Assembly: GCF_032362555.1 (NCBI RefSeq)
Contig: NC_083508.1
Coordinates: 11,747,001 to 11,811,000, forward strand
Source of the DNA: Amyelois transitella
Taxonomy: Eukaryota > Arthropoda > Insecta > Lepidoptera > Pyralidae
Length of the DNA: 64,000 bases
Direction of reading: 5' to 3'
A model generated the notes under the pieces. That model ran no database searches and was not told where the DNA came from. It saw only the letters and a list, made by a program, of their open reading frames with translations. The position numbers and the translations under genes are program-made. Positions 166 to 50,500 of this stretch are shown in pieces (within the stretch, counting starts at the first letter, position 1; the number at the start of each line of letters is the position of its first letter).

Positions 166-3100
166 CGCGAGCACAAAGAGAAATGCTCAGCACACGAGCG
201 TTTAAAACGCGAGCACGCGTCTCTCGAGCGCGAACTGCACAGCGCTCGGGACGCCGTGCGCGCGCGCGAGCTCGCCGCGCAGCACGCGGGCTTCGCGTTC
301 GTGGACGCGGAGGGCGGCGGGGGAGCGGGGGGCGGTGCGGGGGGAGCGGGGGACGGGGGGCCCGCGCTCGCGCTCGTCTCGCACCAATCCGAGCAGCTGC
401 TCAATGACGCGGGGGAGGGGACGCTTGGTGAGCGTTTCGTGTGGTTATATAATTGGCTTTTTAATTGTCTTTACTGCCTTCATTAGGAATGTTTTGTTCC
501 AGTTCTGATTGAATTTTATACATATTATGTTAATCATTTAAATTACAGTCACTGCTTCTGAACACTGTTTACGCTATATTAAAATAAATGATGAACCATT
601 TCAATACTAAAATATATCGAGGTTTAGATATCTACATGCTTTGCTAGCTTAACTTGTGACGGACTTGATTAGATTTGATTAACAAGGTTATTGTTGCTTT
701 GAACCTGTTATTTTTTATTATCAAAATAATACGGATAAAACCGCGATGTGAAATCATGTTGTACAACAACTTATTATTTTGATGTTTTAGCTATAAACTC
801 ATTTATATCAACCTTAGAAATTGTATCATTATTTAAAGAAAATTTATAATTCCAGACGTGCGGTTGCAAAAGTTACTAAGTTCGAAGCAATCCCTGGAGT
901 CTGAAGTGCGCAAACTGAAACTGCAACTCAACGAGGAGCGCGCGGCGAGACAAAATGGCGTCGCCAATCACCACGACGCGGAATATGAAAACGAAAGTGA
1001 GTATTTTGTACACGTTGACTATGGAAATTGGCTAGTAAAACGAGTAATACAGTTTTAATAACATGATCGTACATGGCTATAAATATTATAGCTAGTTTTG
1101 GCTTTGTAAGTAAAAGTATCATAAATTTTATGGGCTATCTTGTTGTCGAAGAAATTAAAAAGTTTAAAAAGAAAATGCAATTATAAAAACATTCCAAATT
1201 TAAAATAAACATAGATTTGAAATTTAAATTCAAAGCATTTATTTAAATTTGAAAATGGAACTTATCTTGAAACTGAACTTGAAATGAACGATAGTTGCTT
1301 TTTGTTTGTGAAGCGATGTATCCTATCTATTTATGGCGGAATTCTTTATTATGTACATAATTTATGTTTGACTTTTATATGATGTGTGTTTGTGGACGGA
1401 GTATGAGTGTTACAATACCGGATAAAGTGCTTTTTGGTGTTATCCTTAAAAGTCCTAAATAGAACGTCTAAGTACTTACAGTTATTAATACTCGACTTGA
1501 TTTTGACGAGATTGTTTAAACAGGAAGTCTACCTTTTGTAGCTTAAACCAGGCTTAAACAAGTTTAAAATATACTGACTGCTTTTAAAAAAGAATAGGAT
1601 AGCCCCATTTCATCACCATGGATGTCGTAAGGTGACTAAGAGATGAACTTATAAACTTGTGATTCTTCTTTGAGGCGGGCTAGCGACCTCATCATTAAGC
1701 CAAACAGTTGAACGTGGCCTATCAGTCATACCAAGACTGTTCTACCCCGCAAGGGATATAAAGACGTGATTATATGTATGTATGTTTGACTGTGCCAACA
1801 GTGGAGACGCTCCGTAAATGCGTGTCGGAGGCGAAGGCGCGGGCGGCGCGCGCGGAGGCCGAGGCGGCGCTGCAGGCCGCCGGCGCCGCGCGGCTCGAGG
1901 CGCAGCTGGCGCGGCTGCGGGCCCGGCAGGACCACCAGGACGAGCACGAGGAGCAGCTCAAGCAGGAGCGCCGCAAGCTGCAGAGAGAGGTGAGGGGACA
2001 CCTACTGCAGCATTACCTTCTCCTCGAGGCGCAGCTGGCGCGGCTGCGGGCCCGCCAGGACCACCAGGACGAGCACGAGGAGCAGCTCAAGCAGGAGCGC
2101 CGCAAGCTGCAGAGAGAGGTGAGGGGACACCTACTGCAGCATTACCTTCTCCTCGAGGCGCAGCTGGCGCGGCTGCGGGCCCGCCAGGACCACCAGGACG
2201 AGCACGAGGAGCAGCTCAAGCAGGAGCGCCGCAAGCTGCAGAGAGAGGTGAGGGGACACCTACTGCAGCATTACCTTCTCCTCGAGGCGCAGCTGGCGCG
2301 GCTGCGGGCCCGCCAGGACCACCAGGACGAGCACGAGGAGCAGCTCAAGCAGGAGCGCCGCAAGCTGCAGAGAGAGGTGAGGGGACACCTACTGCAGCAT
2401 TACCTTCTCCTCGAGGCGCAGCTGGCGCGGCTGCGGGCCCGGCAGGACCACCAGGACGAGCACGAGGAGCAGCTCAAGCAGGAGCGCCGCAAGCTGCAGA
2501 GAGAGGTGAGGGGACACCTACTGCAGCATTACCTTCTCCTCGAGGCGCAGCTGGCGCGGCTGCGGGCCCGCCAGGACCACCAGGACGAGCACGAGGAGCA
2601 GCTCAAGCAGGAGCGCCGCAAGCTGCAGAGAGAGGTGAGGGGACACCTACTGCAGCATTACCTTCTCCTCGAGGCGCAGCTGGCGCGGCTGCGGGCCCGC
2701 CAGGACCACCAGGACGAGCACGAGGAGCAGCTCAAGCAGGAGCGCCGCAAGCTGCAGAGAGAGGTGAGGGGACACCTACTGCAGCATTACCTTCTCCTCG
2801 AGGCGCAGCTGGCGCGGCTGCGGGCCCGGCAGGACCACCAGGACGAGCACGAGGAGCAGCTCAAGCAGGAGCGCCGCAAGCTGCAGAGAGAGGTGAGGGG
2901 ACACCTACTGCAGCATTACCTTCTCCTCGAGGCGCAGCTGGCGCGGCTGCGGGCCCGCCAGGACCACCAGGACGAGCACGAGGAGCAGCTCAAGCAGGAG
3001 CGCCGCAAGCTGCAGAGAGAGGTGAGGGGACACCTACTGCAGCATTACCTTCTCCTCGAGGCGCAGCTGGCGCGGCTGCGGGCCCGCCAGGACCACCAGG

Positions 3101-6100
3101 ACGAGCACGAGGAGCAGCTCAAGCAGGAGCGCCGCAAGCTGCAGAGAGAGGTGAGGGGACACCTACTGCAGCATTACCTTCTCCTCGAGGCGCAGCTGGC
3201 GCGGCTGCGGGCCCGCCAGGACCACCAGGACGAGCACGAGGAGCAGCTCAAGCAGGAGCGCCGCAAGCTGCAGAGAGAGGTGAGGGGACACCTACTGCAG
3301 CATTACCTTCTCCTCGAGGCGCAGCTGGCGCGGCTGCGGGCCCGCCAGGACCACCAGGACGAGCACGAGGAGCAGCTCAAGCAGGAGCGCCGCAAGCTGC
3401 AGAGAGAGGTGAGGGGACACCTACTGCAGCATTACCTTCTCCTCGAGGCGCAGCTGGCGCGGCTGCGGGCCCGCCAGGACCACCAGGACGAGCACGAGGA
3501 GCAGCTCAAGCAGGAGCGCCGCAAGCTGCAGAGAGAGGTGAGGGGACACCTACTGCAGCATTACCTTCTCCTCGAGGCGCAGCTGGCGCGGCTGCGGGCC
3601 CGCCAGGACCACCAGGACGAGCACGAGGAGCAGCTCAAGCAGGAGCGCCGCAAGCTGCAGAGAGAGGTGAGGGGACACCTACTGCAGCATTACCTTCTCC
3701 TCGAGGCGCAGCTGGCGCGGCTGCGGGCCCGCCAGGACCACCAGGACGAGCACGAGGAGCAGCTCAAGCAGGAGCGCCGCAAGCTGCAGAGAGAGGTGAG
3801 GGGACACCTACTGCAGCATTACCTTCTCCTCGAGGCGCAGCTGGCGCGGCTGCGGGCCCGCCAGGACCACCAGGACGAGCACGAGGAGCAGCTCAAGCAG
3901 GAGCGCCGCAAGCTGCAGAGAGAGGTGAGGGGACACCTACTGCAGCATTACCTTCTCCTCGAGGCGCAGCTGGCGCGGCTGCGGGCCCGCCAGGACCACC
4001 AGGACGAGCACGAGGAGCAGCTCAAGCAGGAGCGCCGCAAGCTGCAGAGAGAGGTGAGGGGACACCTACTGCAGCATTACCTTCTCCTCGAGGCGCAGCT
4101 GGCGCGGCTGCGGGCCCGCCAGGACCACCAGGACGAGCACGAGGAGCAGCTCAAGCAGGAGCGCCGCAAGCTGCAGAGAGAGGTGAGGGGACACCTACTG
4201 CAGCATTACCTTCTCCTCGAGGCGCAGCTGGCGCGGCTGCGGGCCCGCCAGGACCACCAGGACGAGCACGAGGAGCAGCTCAAGCAGGAGCGCCGCAAGC
4301 TGCAGAGAGAGGTGAGGGGACACCTACTGCAGCATTACCTTCTCCTCGAGGCGCAGCTGGCGCGGCTGCGGGCCCGCCAGGACCACCAGGACGAGCACGA
4401 GGAGCAGCTCAAGCAGGAGCGCCGCAAGCTGCAGAGAGAGGTGAGGGGACACCTACTGCAGCATTACCTTCTCCTCGAGGCGCAGCTGGCGCGGCTGCGG
4501 GCCCGCCAGGACCACCAGGACGAGCACGAGGAGCAGCTCAAGCAGGAGCGCCGCAAGCTGCAGAGAGAGGTGAGGGGACACCTACTGCAGCATTACCTTC
4601 TCCTCGAGGCGCAGCTGGCGCGGCTGCGGGCCCGCCAGGACCACCAGGACGAGCACGAGGAGCAGCTCAAGCAGGAGCGCCGCAAGCTGCAGAGAGAGGT
4701 GAGGGGACACCTACTGCAGCATTACCTTCTCCTCGAGGCGCAGCTGGCGCGGCTGCGGGCCCGCCAGGACCACCAGGACGAGCACGAGGAGCAGCTCAAG
4801 CAGGAGCGCCGCAAGCTGCAGAGAGAGGTGAGGGGACACCTACTGCAGCATTACCTTCTCCTCGAGGCGCAGCTGGCGCGGCTGCGGGCCCGCCAGGACC
4901 ACCAGGACGAGCACGAGGAGCAGCTCAAGCAGGAGCGCCGCAAGCTGCAGAGAGAGGTGAGGGGACACCTACTGCAGCATTACCTTCTCCTCGAGGCGCA
5001 GCTGGCGCGGCTGCGGGCCCGCCAGGACCACCAGGACGAGCACGAGGAGCAGCTCAAGCAGGAGCGCCGCAAGCTGCAGAGAGAGGTGAGGGGACACCTA
5101 CTGCAGCATTACCTTCTCCTCGAGGCGCAGCTGGCGCGGCTGCGGGCCCGCCAGGACCACCAGGACGAGCACGAGGAGCAGCTCAAGCAGGAGCGCCGCA
5201 AGCTGCAGAGAGAGGTGAGGGGACACCTACTGCAGCATTACCTTCTCCTCGAGGCGCAGCTGGCGCGGCTGCGGGCCCGCCAGGACCACCAGGACGAGCA
5301 CGAGGAGCAGCTCAAGCAGGAGCGCCGCAAGCTGCAGAGAGAGGTGAGGGGACACCTACTGCAGCATTACCTTCTCCTCGAGGCGCAGCTGGCGCGGCTG
5401 CGGGCCCGCCAGGACCACCAGGACGAGCACGAGGAGCAGCTCAAGCAGGAGCGCCGCAAGCTGCAGAGAGAGGTGAGGGGACACCTACTGCAGCATTACC
5501 TTCTCCTCGAGGCGCAGCTGGCGCGGCTGCGGGCCCGCCAGGACCACCAGGACGAGCACGAGGAGCAGCTCAAGCAGGAGCGCCGCAAGCTGCAGAGAGA
5601 GGTGAGGGGACACCTACTGCAGCATTACCTTCTCCTCGAGGCGCAGCTGGCGCGGCTGCGGGCCCGCCAGGACCACCAGGACGAGCACGAGGAGCAGCTC
5701 AAGCAGGAGCGCCGCAAGCTGCAGAGAGAGGTGAGGGGACACCTACTGCAGCATTACCTTCTCCTCGAGGCGCAGCTGGCGCGGCTGCGGGCCCGCCAGG
5801 ACCACCAGGACGAGCACGAGGAGCAGCTCAAGCAGGAGCGCCGCAAGCTGCAGAGAGAGGTGAGGGGACACCTACTGCAGCATTACCTTCTCCTCGAGGC
5901 GCAGCTGGCGCGGCTGCGGGCCCGCCAGGACCACCAGGACGAGCACGAGGAGCAGCTCAAGCAGGAGCGCCGCAAGCTGCAGAGAGAGGTGAGGGGACAC
6001 CTACTGCAGCATTACCTTCTCCTCGAGGCGCAGCTGGCGCGGCTGCGGGCCCGCCAGGACCACCAGGACGAGCACGAGGAGCAGCTCAAGCAGGAGCGCC

Positions 6101-7340
6101 GCAAGCTGCAGAGAGAGGTGAGGGGACCTCCTCTGTATTAGTCCAGTGTGGCAGAAATCCGAGATAGGACCGTCAGAATAAACATAAAGAGCAGCTGAAA
6201 CAACAGTGAACTATCCCAAGGTTCCTTAAAGGTTGCGGAGGTCAGGCAGTTTTCATTGTGATTTTTGTTTACACTTTTTCCTATATTGTGGAACAATAGT
6301 GAAGTAAAAAACAATCATGGTGCAACATTTCATAGTGCATGATAATTATCCAAAGCATCATGTCATCATTAAATACGAGTAGATATTTTAATTTCCTAGT
6401 CCTAGTATATTTTTATTTTGTGATGTATTTTCAGGAAGTTGTTGACTTCTGGGCCGAAATCAATAATGGCGACAGTTAACGGTACAGTGAGCTCGCCCCG
6501 AGTGGACCCACCCACCGTTTTGTGTCTCTAATTCTAGATATAAAGGCCCATATTTAAAGGCTAGATTAGTTCAAGAATACTACACAACTCTTCCTAATTA
6601 ACTTAAAGAATATTGAAATAAATGACATACTTAACAAATGAAAGTTTTTAACAGTACATCGTTTTTATTATCTCGTTTCATACTTCTTCGAGAAAAGTTG
6701 AGTATTCTTGGCTGAATGTATCCTTAAAATAATTCAATAATAATTTGTACGACCTTATTTTTTTTGCAGTCTGTATAACGTTTGCGTTAAACCTATAATC
6801 ATATAAAATCGGATGTAAATAATAAAACCGTTAACATGTACAGAACTTTAAAGTAAACCACAATTTTAATTTATAAAGAAATATCCAACCCTGTTATAGA
6901 TTTTCGCTATAATAACATATTACGCCGAATTTACACAAGCAATTTATGGCCAAATGTATATTTACTGCGGAATTTGCTTTGCCTCCTTAACTTAACCAAA
7001 ACAATAACAGACAATTTAGTGAAATTAGTATTAACAGAAAATGTCAAGTTTTGCCATTTTGTTTACCTACATTGTTTGGCTATGTCCAATTCCCGATCAG
7101 ATTTCTTGTTATACTTCCTTTTGTCCTACCAATTTTACCAATACTACGATTTTATTCCCATTTTTACGACCTTAACTGCTTTTACTGAACCATCGTTCAC
7201 AAAAATAATACTAACGTTACATTTTCCAGGCGAGGGAGGCTCTGAATCGTGTCGAAGAGTTGGAGACGGAGAACAGCCACTTGACCAAGAGGCTGGACAA
7301 GTTGAAGAACGCCAAATCCGCGCTGCTGAAGGACCTGTGA
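166..7340 (+). CDS. LRRFIP2: LRRFIP1/2-type coiled-coil protein, 3' part of gene
   Basis: Inferred exons are 166-427, 856-996, 1802-1989 and 7230-7340 (TGA stop); the gene starts upstream of the window. Joined phases agree: T-L-D-V across the first junction, QRE|AREALNRVEELE across the last. The protein is a charged coiled coil. It carries the family's conserved blocks: AGEGTLDVRLQKLL, RKLKLQLNEE, EEQLKQERRKLQRE and NSHLTKRLDKLKNAKSALL, which I recognise as close to the C-terminus of vertebrate LRRFIP2. Vertebrate members bind Flightless-I and act in Toll/Wnt-related signalling; that role is family knowledge, not visible here. A Gly/Ala-rich insert (about 305-360) sits between the blocks. The third exon is the founder of the 129-bp array, so splicing could use the first donor (after 1989), the last (after 6117) or any between. 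All keep frame because the unit is 43 codons. Confidence 0.85.
1585..1784 (+). mobile_element. Short LINE-partner element (SINE-like) in LRRFIP intron
   Basis: Matches the family seen repeatedly in the window: head with 'aagaataggat' and 'ccatggatgtcgtaa', middle 'ttaagccaaac', then 'gaacgtggcctatcag', and tail 'ctaccccgcaagggatata' followed by (TATG)n. The tail stops about 17 bp before the acceptor of the next exon (AG at 1800-1801), so the branch point and pyrimidine tract of that exon probably lie in element sequence. Confidence 0.8.
1894..6127 (+). repeat. 129-bp tandem array, 33 copies, made of exon end plus splice donor plus intron start
   Basis: Copies begin at 1894 and every 129 bp after that up to 6022; the last is incomplete and diverges at about 6128. 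Each unit holds 96 nt of LRRFIP exon, a strong donor (AGAGAG|GTGAGG) and 33 nt of former intron. The unit encodes 43 residues with no stop, so an open frame runs from 1774 to 6141. A second, Gly/Ala/Pro-rich frame is also open from 1818 to 6167. Copies are nearly identical; the variant I can see is a synonymous CGG/CGC Arg codon at unit position 33, with CGG in copies 1, 5 and 8 only. Copies 9-33 look uniform. This is a coding minisatellite; whether the extra copies reach the mRNA cannot be told from DNA. Confidence 0.95.
6128..7229 (+). other. Rest of LRRFIP last intron
   Basis: AT-rich intron between the end of the array and the last exon. Apart from the sequence 6183-6209, which reads HKEQLKQQ and then a stop and resembles the exon motif HEEQLKQE, I see nothing here. 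Confidence 0.6.
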
Positions 7341-24342: not shown

Positions 24343-37248
<12,906 letters not shown>

Positions 37249-47590: not shown

Positions 47591-50500
47591 ATGCAACGCA
47601 AGCCGACGTCGGAGTTCCACTCGCTGCCCAACATGCGCACGGGCAGCGCGACCAGCCCACTCGATATACATCGGCTGCTCAGTCTGTCTCTGTCGCAGAT
47701 CAGGAAAAATGCAGAAAACACTGTGTACCATCACAAACCTTCTCCCTTTGTAAGTATATATTATATATGGTATATCTATAGCATTTTGTCCTAATCTCAA
47801 CTCGTACTATTAATATTTTTTTTTTCGTCCCGGATTCATTCGGGTAGTTCTCATTCGGCATTCTATCTATTGTCACACATATATAGTGTTTATAAAAAAC
47901 AATTAAAAAGGGTTTTTGATCGCGCTGCAATCTGTTTGTTTGTTTGTAATATCTATTGCATAGAAATTTACACAGTTACAAGAAAATAGTACATAGTTAT
48001 AAAAGAAACAAATCTGCTTACAATATACGTACAAACGTCCACAAATAGGTACTGTTGGCAAAATAAGTTTGTCTGTCATCAACAGCAGCTGCTACTTCTA
48101 CAATATATTCCAGAACATTCGCTGGATCCACGGGTACAACTCTAAGGTGGACGTGATCAATCTGAACAACAAAGGCAGCACGATCCTGTTCTACGCTGCC
48201 AACAATTGCGGGGTTTTGTACAACTGGACCACCAACCAGATGCGGATACTGCAGGGACATGTAGTTATTCATTTATTTTCAAGGGAATTGGCGTTTTTAA
48301 GAACCATAAAATGTATTGATTTCCTAAGTCTAATAAGGCTCTCATAAGGCTGACGGTTTACTAGCTCCACTACGTTTTGTATTTGAGTGACGATCGTGAA
48401 GACCTCTAAGTTTTGTACTCATAATGATGTATACTAGACAGGTCATGGCTCACAGGGTCATAGCTGGACCCCGAGCTGCTCTCCAGGATAGAAGCTCTGG
48501 TAACTTAGTAAACGCCAGGGGTATGATGATATTATTTTTTTGGTGTAATCTGCTTATAGAAGTTGGCAATCATTAACCCTGCCACCAGCCTTAATGAAAT
48601 TATGACATTGAATCGAAGCAATAACCTAAACATTCCAGAGACACATGGTAACGTGCATCGCAGTTGACGGCCCGGGCCGATGGCTGGTGACGGCTGACAG
48701 CGGCCCTGGCAACATCATCATCATCTGGGACAGCACCGACTACTTCCCGCAGAAAACCCTGTTCAGCCCACATGGAAACACCAAGCTGAGCAAAGTGGCT
48801 TTGAGCGCCGATGCCAAGTATTTGCTGACCTTAGGATATAAGGACAAGGCGTGTTTGTACTGGTGGATCTGGTCGTTTGGACTCGATGAACCTCATGGTC
48901 TGTTCTGCCATCTCTTTACTTCTAGATTTTTTCAGTATTGTAAGAAAAGACGGTAACTAGGTACATTAATACTGAGGCGAAAAGAGTTTGTGTTTGTTTT
49001 TAGAGCAGTTTTTTTTAATATCGGGCTTTTTATCGGTAGCGAAGCCAATGAATCTCGGTCTTCGCGTTTCCCTTGGGAAATGCACGCAACTACAAAAAAA
49101 GCCCGATGTAAATGGATAGGAATTTTTTCCTTTTTTATGTATTTTTTTATTTTTCAGCGAAAGCAGAAATAGATTTGCCTCGAGAAGCGGTGATCACCAT
49201 GGATTTTAACCCGCAACTAAGTGAACAATTTCTGTTATTGACTAAAAATGATATATGGATTGGGGTTTCCGGCGTAAGTCTCATCTGTATACATACATTC
49301 CTATGGTATCGTTGATGTCCCTCGCAAACTGACATCGCCTCATATCCAATTTATCGAACATCCACTAGTCGATATTTAATTAATTTTGGTATGGAATGGC
49401 GACATGGGTCTTATCTTGGGATTCCGGTAAAAACTCCGAACGATAACAGCTGTAGTAACGTGAATTTCTTTCATATAATTATACTCGTATCTTCGTTACA
49501 GAAAGTGTTTGTTATCGAAAGAGGTGTTCTCAAAGAGACTGATTATTACCAATTGAAAATACGGAAAGTAGACCGACCTCCCAGCTCGGAGGCCGGGAAG
49601 CTCACCTGCTTCACCTTCGTGAAGGATACTTCGCAAATATTGGTAGCGACCAGCAGGGGGTACGTCCTCATCTATGGGTACAGCATAGAGTTTCAAGAGC
49701 AGTCGCAGCCGTCCAGCCATGATAATTTGAAATTCGTGAAGTTGTTCAAATTGGAGAAGTGCAGGATTAACGTTATCAAAAGCATCGATGGGTAAGTTTT
49801 TTAAATTATTGTTTCAGTAGTATTTTTAGACAAATCTAATCTACTTTTAGAGGATTAACGTTATCAAAAGCATCGATGGGTAAGTTTTTTAAATTATTGT
49901 TTCAGTAGTATTTTTAGACAAATCTAATCTACTTTTAGAGGATATGTTTCAGCGACATTTTCAGGCAAACATCTTATGCCTACATCCATATGCCTACAAT
50001 GAATTTACTCGAGAATAACAAACACATACTTAGTAAATATTCGAAAAGATCCATAAAATAATATGTATCAAATTCTAATTGATAAGAACTTCTACTAGCT
50101 CTCTACCTACATTAACTTCTAGTCCACAATGAGAAACATGTGGTGATAACCCAATTCATAATCCAACCCAGTCATTAATTCACACTAAAACTCAGCGACA
50201 AAAAAGTGAAATCGTTGGACCTTGGAAATTCCAGTACAATTTCAGACTTATAGCGACTGGTAACAATGGCGGGGAGATCCACTTCTACGACCAGCAGCTG
50301 AAGCTGCTGTACTGGGTGCACGGCTTTCAGCCTGATTGCGTCAAAAACCTCAGCTTCAACATCTCGCCGAGGAGCTACAGGATCTTTGATCCTAAGTGTT
50401 AGTAGCAATTTGTTAAGAAACTTTCGATACAAGACTGACTCTTTCGAGGGTTCCTATTGGTGCAAAGAATTAACTATTATGTGAACATTATACTTTTGTT

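Follow-up and report, generated by a model that had tools for sequence, protein, structure and literature searches.

A predicted splice-donor minisatellite of 33 copies at an exon-intron border of the Amyelois transitella LRRFIP gene

The stretch of DNA analysed here (the window) comprises 64,000 nucleotides of Amyelois transitella (assembly GCF_032362555.1, contig NC_083508.1, positions 11,747,001 to 11,811,000 of the forward strand) and contains part of an LRRFIP gene in which an exon end and its predicted splice donor recur in a long tandem array. Four exons of this gene lie on the plus strand of the window: exon A (166-427, donor TTG|GTGAGC at 428), within which a Gly-rich low-complexity stretch was seen at about 300-366; exon B (856-996, donor AAA|GTGAGT at 997); exon C (1802-1989, 188 nt to its first donor), whose final 96 nt make up the coding portion of the repeat unit; and the last coding exon, D (7230-7340, including the stop codon at 7338-7340). 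Three further exons were modelled upstream of the window. The hand-joined exons matched the LRRFIP family PF09738 with an E of 6.3e-75 and 252.7 bits (gathering cut-off 28.2) over profile positions 1-297 of 300, and exons A-D joined alone gave 7.8e-20, in line with an earlier note on this DNA that had named the gene LRRFIP. The upstream coiled coil also matched that of human LRRFIP1 (PDB 4H22; phmmer E 2e-14, query residues 3-84). Because the PF09738 match stops short of the repeat, the family assignment rests on the upstream exons; we take the exon C/D junction to be conserved with vertebrate LRRFIP2. Eight matches to the family were found in the genome: the best four, three of them over the cut-off, are exons of this locus, and the remaining four lie on other contigs and stay below the cut-off, with weak E values of 0.07 to 0.17. 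This is the sole LRRFIP gene detected in the genome.

The array occupies positions 1894-6127. Tandem Repeats Finder (TRF) reported a period of 129, 32.8 copies and a 99% match, and a copy-wise script resolved 32 full copies and a last copy of 106 bp (6022-6127). Each full unit consists of the 96-nt exon tail, the 10-nt GTGAGGGGAC and a 23-nt linker, ACCTACTGCAGCATTACCTTCTC, which is confined to the positions between copies (32 occurrences, the first at 2000-2022); in the coding frame the unit reads LEAQLARLRARQDHQDEHEEQLKQERRKLQREVRGHLLQHYLL and is free of stops. The full copies vary at one site only, unit position 33, where CGC is replaced by CGG in copies 1, 5 and 8; both codons specify Arg, so that the only variable site of the array is synonymous and uninformative, and copies 9-32 are letter-identical. 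The two programs agree with each other and with the extent, the 33 copies and the 129-bp unit given in the earlier note, and the script likewise reproduced its placing of the CGG variant and its row of 33 donors before a single acceptor at 7230. A search of the genome (327 Mb) with positions 1860-2120 returned 32 matches among the best candidates scored, all of them within the array. The array is not a chance occurrence, since only one other array with a period of at least 40 and at least 5 copies was present in 292 kb of the same genome.

Uniformity of this degree could also reflect an assembly artefact, whereby a repeat loop in the assembly multiplied one or a few real copies and left the sequence with the wrong copy number. 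Besides the letter-identical copies, the presence of a second array with 8.3 copies at 100% identity in a neighbouring gene would fit such an explanation. However, the variants in copies 1, 5 and 8 are unlike the product of a simple loop, and so is a third array, in a reductase gene, whose copies have diverged (94% identity); ordinary long reads, if used, would span the 4.2 kb, and no N occurs in the 302 kb examined. The genome is in 33 contigs, and of the 20 that were sized, 19 measure 4.7 to 13.9 Mb and one, of 15 kb, is mitochondrion-sized. We regard a falsely multiplied locus as quite unlikely.

The copies of GTGAGGGGAC are spaced by exactly 129 nt from 1990 to 6118, and all 33 form the identical phase-0 donor GAG|GTGAGG ahead of the single acceptor at the start of exon D (7230). 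Donors and acceptors were scored throughout with assumed splice-site matrices. On this scale the array donor scores 7.24, above the range of 3.68 to 6.58 spanned by the LRRFIP gene's five modelled donors further upstream, and it ranks in the top 0.74% of the 5846 plus-strand GTs of a 102-kb region made up of the window and 38 kb upstream, a percentile that includes the array itself (33 of the ~43 GTs at or above 7.24 are array donors). Donor 1 (1990-1999) is presumed to be ancestral and the site mainly used; donor 33 (6118-6127) is the last, and the rest of the intron follows at 6128-7229. Judged by its sequence, the array is a splice-donor minisatellite in which 33 equally strong predicted donors face one acceptor.

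How much of the unit derives from the intron can be narrowed. The earlier note had counted 33 nt of intron per unit, but copy 33 and its flank have only GTGAGGGGAC in common, so that the demonstrably intronic part of each copy is 10 nt. The remaining 23 nt aligned with the right flank no better than shuffled sequences did (29% of which reached the score), gave no local match beyond shuffles in the 1.9 kb before or the 10 kb after the array, resembled neither the flanks nor the unit nor the intron after the array more than shuffles did, and at up to 3 mismatches were found nowhere in the genome except in their 32 in-array copies. The linker therefore looks like filler from a first duplication. 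The simplest account would be a 106-bp tandem duplication joined by 23 nt of filler, followed by expansion as a 129-bp unit; this would explain why the last copy measures 106 bp and ends exactly where a linker would start, although a later deletion at the right end is an alternative. A transposon as the source of unit or linker was rejected, as the linker occurs only in the array and the downstream flank (6125-6540) has a single genome match. A stretch resembling a short interspersed nuclear element (SINE) runs from 1590 to 1801, up to the acceptor of exon C. BLAST finds it, counting the stretch itself, 80 times in 292 kb, with 23 of the hits falling in the 102-kb region and 57 in a comparison sample of 190 kb; this sample consists of 19 loci of 10 kb each, taken at round positions from other contigs, with the 15-kb contig dropped from the 20 fetched. 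Such a stretch is common, so its nearness to exon C means little, and SINE-driven amplification was likewise set aside. The near-uniform copies suggest that the array is young or homogenised; the very recent expansion proposed in the earlier note thus agrees with their uniformity but shares the ground with homogenisation. If homogenisation is left aside, the absence of any change in 25 copies (9-33, the last counted as full) would place the expansion within ~3e5 generations, at an assumed mutation rate of 2.9e-9.

The array is also open in the coding frame. When donors 1, 2, 3 and 33 were spliced to 7230 and translated, exons C and D together gave 98, 141, 184 and 1474 aa, respectively, with no internal stops. 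Later donors keep the frame because the unit is 43 stop-free codons long and the intron is in phase 0. Use of donor 33 would add 1376 = 32 x 43 residues and enlarge exon C from 188 to 4316 nt; read-through beyond the last copy reaches a TAG at 6139. The earlier note was thus correct that 129 is divisible by three, that the former intron bases contain no stop and that the last donor adds 32 x 43 residues, and its broader statement, that any donor yields a full-length protein, holds for the four donors translated and follows from the period for the others. Matches of the read-through array to Pfam families (antibiotic monooxygenase, CTD11 and others) were rejected as artefacts of repeat composition, six of the seven having no stretch that passes alone, and a phmmer search with the 233-aa tail returned 43 weak matches (best E 0.044), mostly Gly-rich linkers and none of them LRRFIP.

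This openness could mean that the array is a coding minisatellite in use, with late donors, including the last, substantially employed and up to 32 extra 43-residue units, the length varying among transcripts and individuals. The donors are identical and hence equally strong, the four translated choices are stop-free, and the unit appears by eye mostly charged and helix-like. However, the exon would have to grow to 4316 nt, a 43-residue unit does not divide into whole heptads, and the heptad moment, a crude measure, averages 0.43 in the repeats and 0.85 in the normal tail. In addition, when the linker was swapped for random pieces of this gene's introns, the chance of an array that is both in frame and open came to ~1/3 x 0.60 = 0.2, so that no selection is needed to account for the open frame; two of the five long-period arrays in the 102 kb have periods divisible by three, as expected by chance. 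Nothing indicates use of the added coding sequence, and the protein expansion envisaged in the earlier note loses ground on this openness by chance and on the synonymous variable site. We consider a coding minisatellite in use unlikely.

A different use of the array would be splicing within it, either through an acceptor formed by linker and exon or through AG|GT sites of dual specificity as in UBC, such that phase-0 modules of 84 nt (28 aa, four heptads) or 129 nt are removed or kept. The acceptor-like CCTTCTCCTCGAGGCGCAG|CTGG scores 3.32, is in phase 0, lies in the top 2.76% of AGs (array copies counted) and exceeds five of the seven modelled acceptors of the gene (n2, A, B, C and D), ranking below n1 (3.34) and n3 (5.65). 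In copy 2 it would precede a candidate mini-exon at 2035-2118 on the plus strand, which recurs in every later copy. However, an in-exon AG at 2059 of the same copy scores 2.94, so that the matrix is undiscriminating and permissive on GC-rich sequence, and the gap between copies would form a 45-nt intron, against ~283 nt for the smallest of six modelled introns of the gene. UBC and VCX3A are tandem arrays of dual-specific AG|GT splice sites, and the number of units in UBC mRNA varies by splicing, the isoforms differing by whole units via AGGT sites (PMC10809524). These arrays resemble that of LRRFIP in having head-to-tail units of a length divisible by 3 with an AGGT in each, which in the LRRFIP unit is present once. 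In UBC and VCX3A, however, the site doubles as an acceptor, whereas the LRRFIP site makes a poor and implausible one (-8.79, a score equalled or bettered by 75% of 6095 AGs); UBC units are, moreover, whole protein domains, whereas the LRRFIP unit includes an exon-intron boundary. Splicing within the array seems to us very improbable.

We favour the reading, with a probability of roughly 0.6, that donor 1 makes the normal LRRFIP and that the array leaves with the intron as a tolerated passenger, the later donors giving a minor in-frame ladder. The anatomy suggests that a 106-bp piece, comprising the 96-nt end of exon C and the 10 nt of intron next to it, was tandemly duplicated with a 23-nt filler at the joint, and the identity of the copies suggests that unequal exchange or iterative replication then produced 33 of them, recently or with homogenisation. 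In the resulting sequence 33 predicted donors of equal strength face one acceptor. Donor 1, ending an exon of normal size (188 nt), would serve most transcripts, with the array removed in a 5.2-kb intron, while donor 2, 3 or a later one, if occasionally used, would keep the frame and yield a minor ladder of coiled-coil lengths, for which the human gene IFI6 (discussed below) offers a precedent. The array would then be a passenger and not a selected protein-length device. Donor 1 is expected to be the main site because it adds no insert and because the normal product is presumably needed, no second LRRFIP locus having been detected in the genome.

A sister case in the window points in the same direction. 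A reductase exon (33665-33915) is tandemly duplicated together with its donor (224 bp x 2.7, 94%, spanning 33665-34339); it matches PF07992 (pyridine nucleotide-disulphide reductase) over the cut-off (5.9e-7) and PF02852 below it (0.0032), and we take it to be thioredoxin reductase. For this gene, as for LRRFIP, the donor-straddling anatomy was checked by in-frame joining. The donors at 33916 and 34140 score equally (7.87); the first joins the next exon in frame, the second meets a stop at once, which would truncate the protein, and copy 3 has no donor. If the gene works, donor 1 would be the one used. Mainly donor 1 is therefore expected in LRRFIP as well. That only one of the two reductase donors can serve also argues against a coding minisatellite, and it favours the alternative left by the earlier note, that the array may be a spliced-out curiosity. 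A 70-bp direct repeat (33446-33515 and 33611-33680, 95.7%, offset 165) was also observed here; both edges of the reductase exon are duplicated, because the second copy of this repeat takes in the exon start.

Several points weigh against predominant use of donor 1. Both donor use and the ancestral state are inferred from the DNA. All 33 donors are identical and strong, so that donor strength gives no separation among the copies, and in duplicated-donor constructs intron-proximal donors often win, a preference from which late copies would gain. An open frame in phase with the gene runs through all 4.2 kb of the array. Its copies have no informative substitutions, which makes a signal of selection unreadable. 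Finally, a minus-strand GIT-like gene upstream of the window (GIT_SHD match 1.6e-5) contains a 122-bp array of 8.3 copies that are 100% identical (contig positions 11712441-11713457), built from the end of the SHD exon and a weak donor-like stub. With the one acceptor assumed, the join is in frame only from donors 2, 5 and 8 of 8, and not from donor 1. This points either to an error in the gene model or to a first-donor preference that does not hold everywhere; we weighed the donor 1 reading slightly down and the coding minisatellite slightly up on this result.

The GIT-like array is one of several long-period arrays in the neighbourhood. Five arrays with periods of at least 70 occur in the 102-kb region (129 x 32.8, 122 x 8.3, 72 x 4.0, 224 x 2.7 and 88 x 2.1), against one (75 x 1.9) among the best 40 of 55 rows for the comparison sample. 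The 72-bp array (contig positions 11711843-11712131; 4 copies, 98%) immediately follows the GIT-like gene's next exon and is open in frame (24 codons). Donor candidates of this gene are weak, with scores of 2.7 in the 122-bp unit and of 0.69 and 2.02 in the 72-bp unit. The 88-bp duplication (49763-49943, 100%) appears on reading the sequence to comprise an exon end and a 59-nt intron including its two splice sites, with AGGAT at the boundaries. A 63-bp direct repeat (100% identity, offset 346) was also noted at 36026-36434. Self-BLAST counts of close direct-repeat clusters were 13 for the region and 21 for the 190 kb, so that duplications overall are hardly denser here than elsewhere; clusters whose closest pair is at least 93% identical number 8 in the region and 1 in the 190 kb, a comparison whose threshold was set post hoc and which is confounded with gene density.

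Arrays of this kind are already known. Human IFI6 (G1P3, 6-16) is said to carry ~26 copies of a 12-nt unit that is donor-like only, and its three mRNA species reportedly correspond to the first three of these repeats. In IFI6 as in LRRFIP a minisatellite supplies several splice donors, and the LRRFIP array likewise begins in an exon end, has a good donor in every unit and faces one acceptor; the IFI6 unit, however, is reportedly a donor-like 12 nt, whereas that of LRRFIP is 129 nt, contains 96 nt of coding exon and is present in 33 copies. The three IFI6 mRNA species are described as arising between exons two and three via downstream repeat donors (PMC4526556), and the splice-donor minisatellite appears in the title of a work by Turri, Cuin and Porter (Nucleic Acids Research, NAR, 1995), as cited in PMC4526556 and PMC2572611. 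Downstream donor use is thus reported for IFI6, whereas the LRRFIP array is known here from its sequence.

Intron gain offers a further comparison. A tandem duplication across an exon-intron boundary copied splice signals in the potato RNA-dependent RNA polymerase (RdRp) gene (PMC4974935), and fission yeast has a 24-bp exonic segment in multiple tandem copies that contain cryptic splice sites, given as AGGT in PMC4974935 and as AGGC in PMC3629103. In contrast to these cases, the LRRFIP array needs no new intron, an existing intron gaining donors at a far higher copy number; similarly, intron gain by tandem duplication (Rogers) requires a new intron, whereas the LRRFIP anatomy only adds donors. 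For LRRFIP itself, seven variants of shrimp LRRFIP2 differ in their 5' ends and in the segments they lack, no differing 3' sequences having been found (PMC3585381); these variants do not suggest a conserved length device at the place of the array. No LRRFIP array was described in the literature surveyed, which included the topics LRRFIP, tandem and Lepidoptera as well as variable number tandem repeats (VNTRs) and splice sites. Given the precedents of IFI6, UBC and VCX3A, what is new here is the size of the array and the captured coding exon.

A more far-reaching idea is that the array works as a splice-tunable coiled-coil ruler, with 0 to 32 extra segments of 43 residues (or 28 residues, four heptads), their number set by the winning donor and by a fast-changing copy number, and that it forms part of a wider burst of exon-intron-border amplification in the genome; we regard this as decidedly improbable.

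In summary, the LRRFIP array of A. transitella offers a natural experiment on donor choice, in which 33 identical donors in near-identical contexts share one acceptor, so that position alone can decide among them. It also indicates that the end of a coding exon and its donor can be amplified without breaking the gene, which is left intact because the unit is in frame and the first donor is still able to serve. Similar arrays in neighbouring genes hint at a possible tendency of exon-intron borders in this lineage towards tandem amplification.

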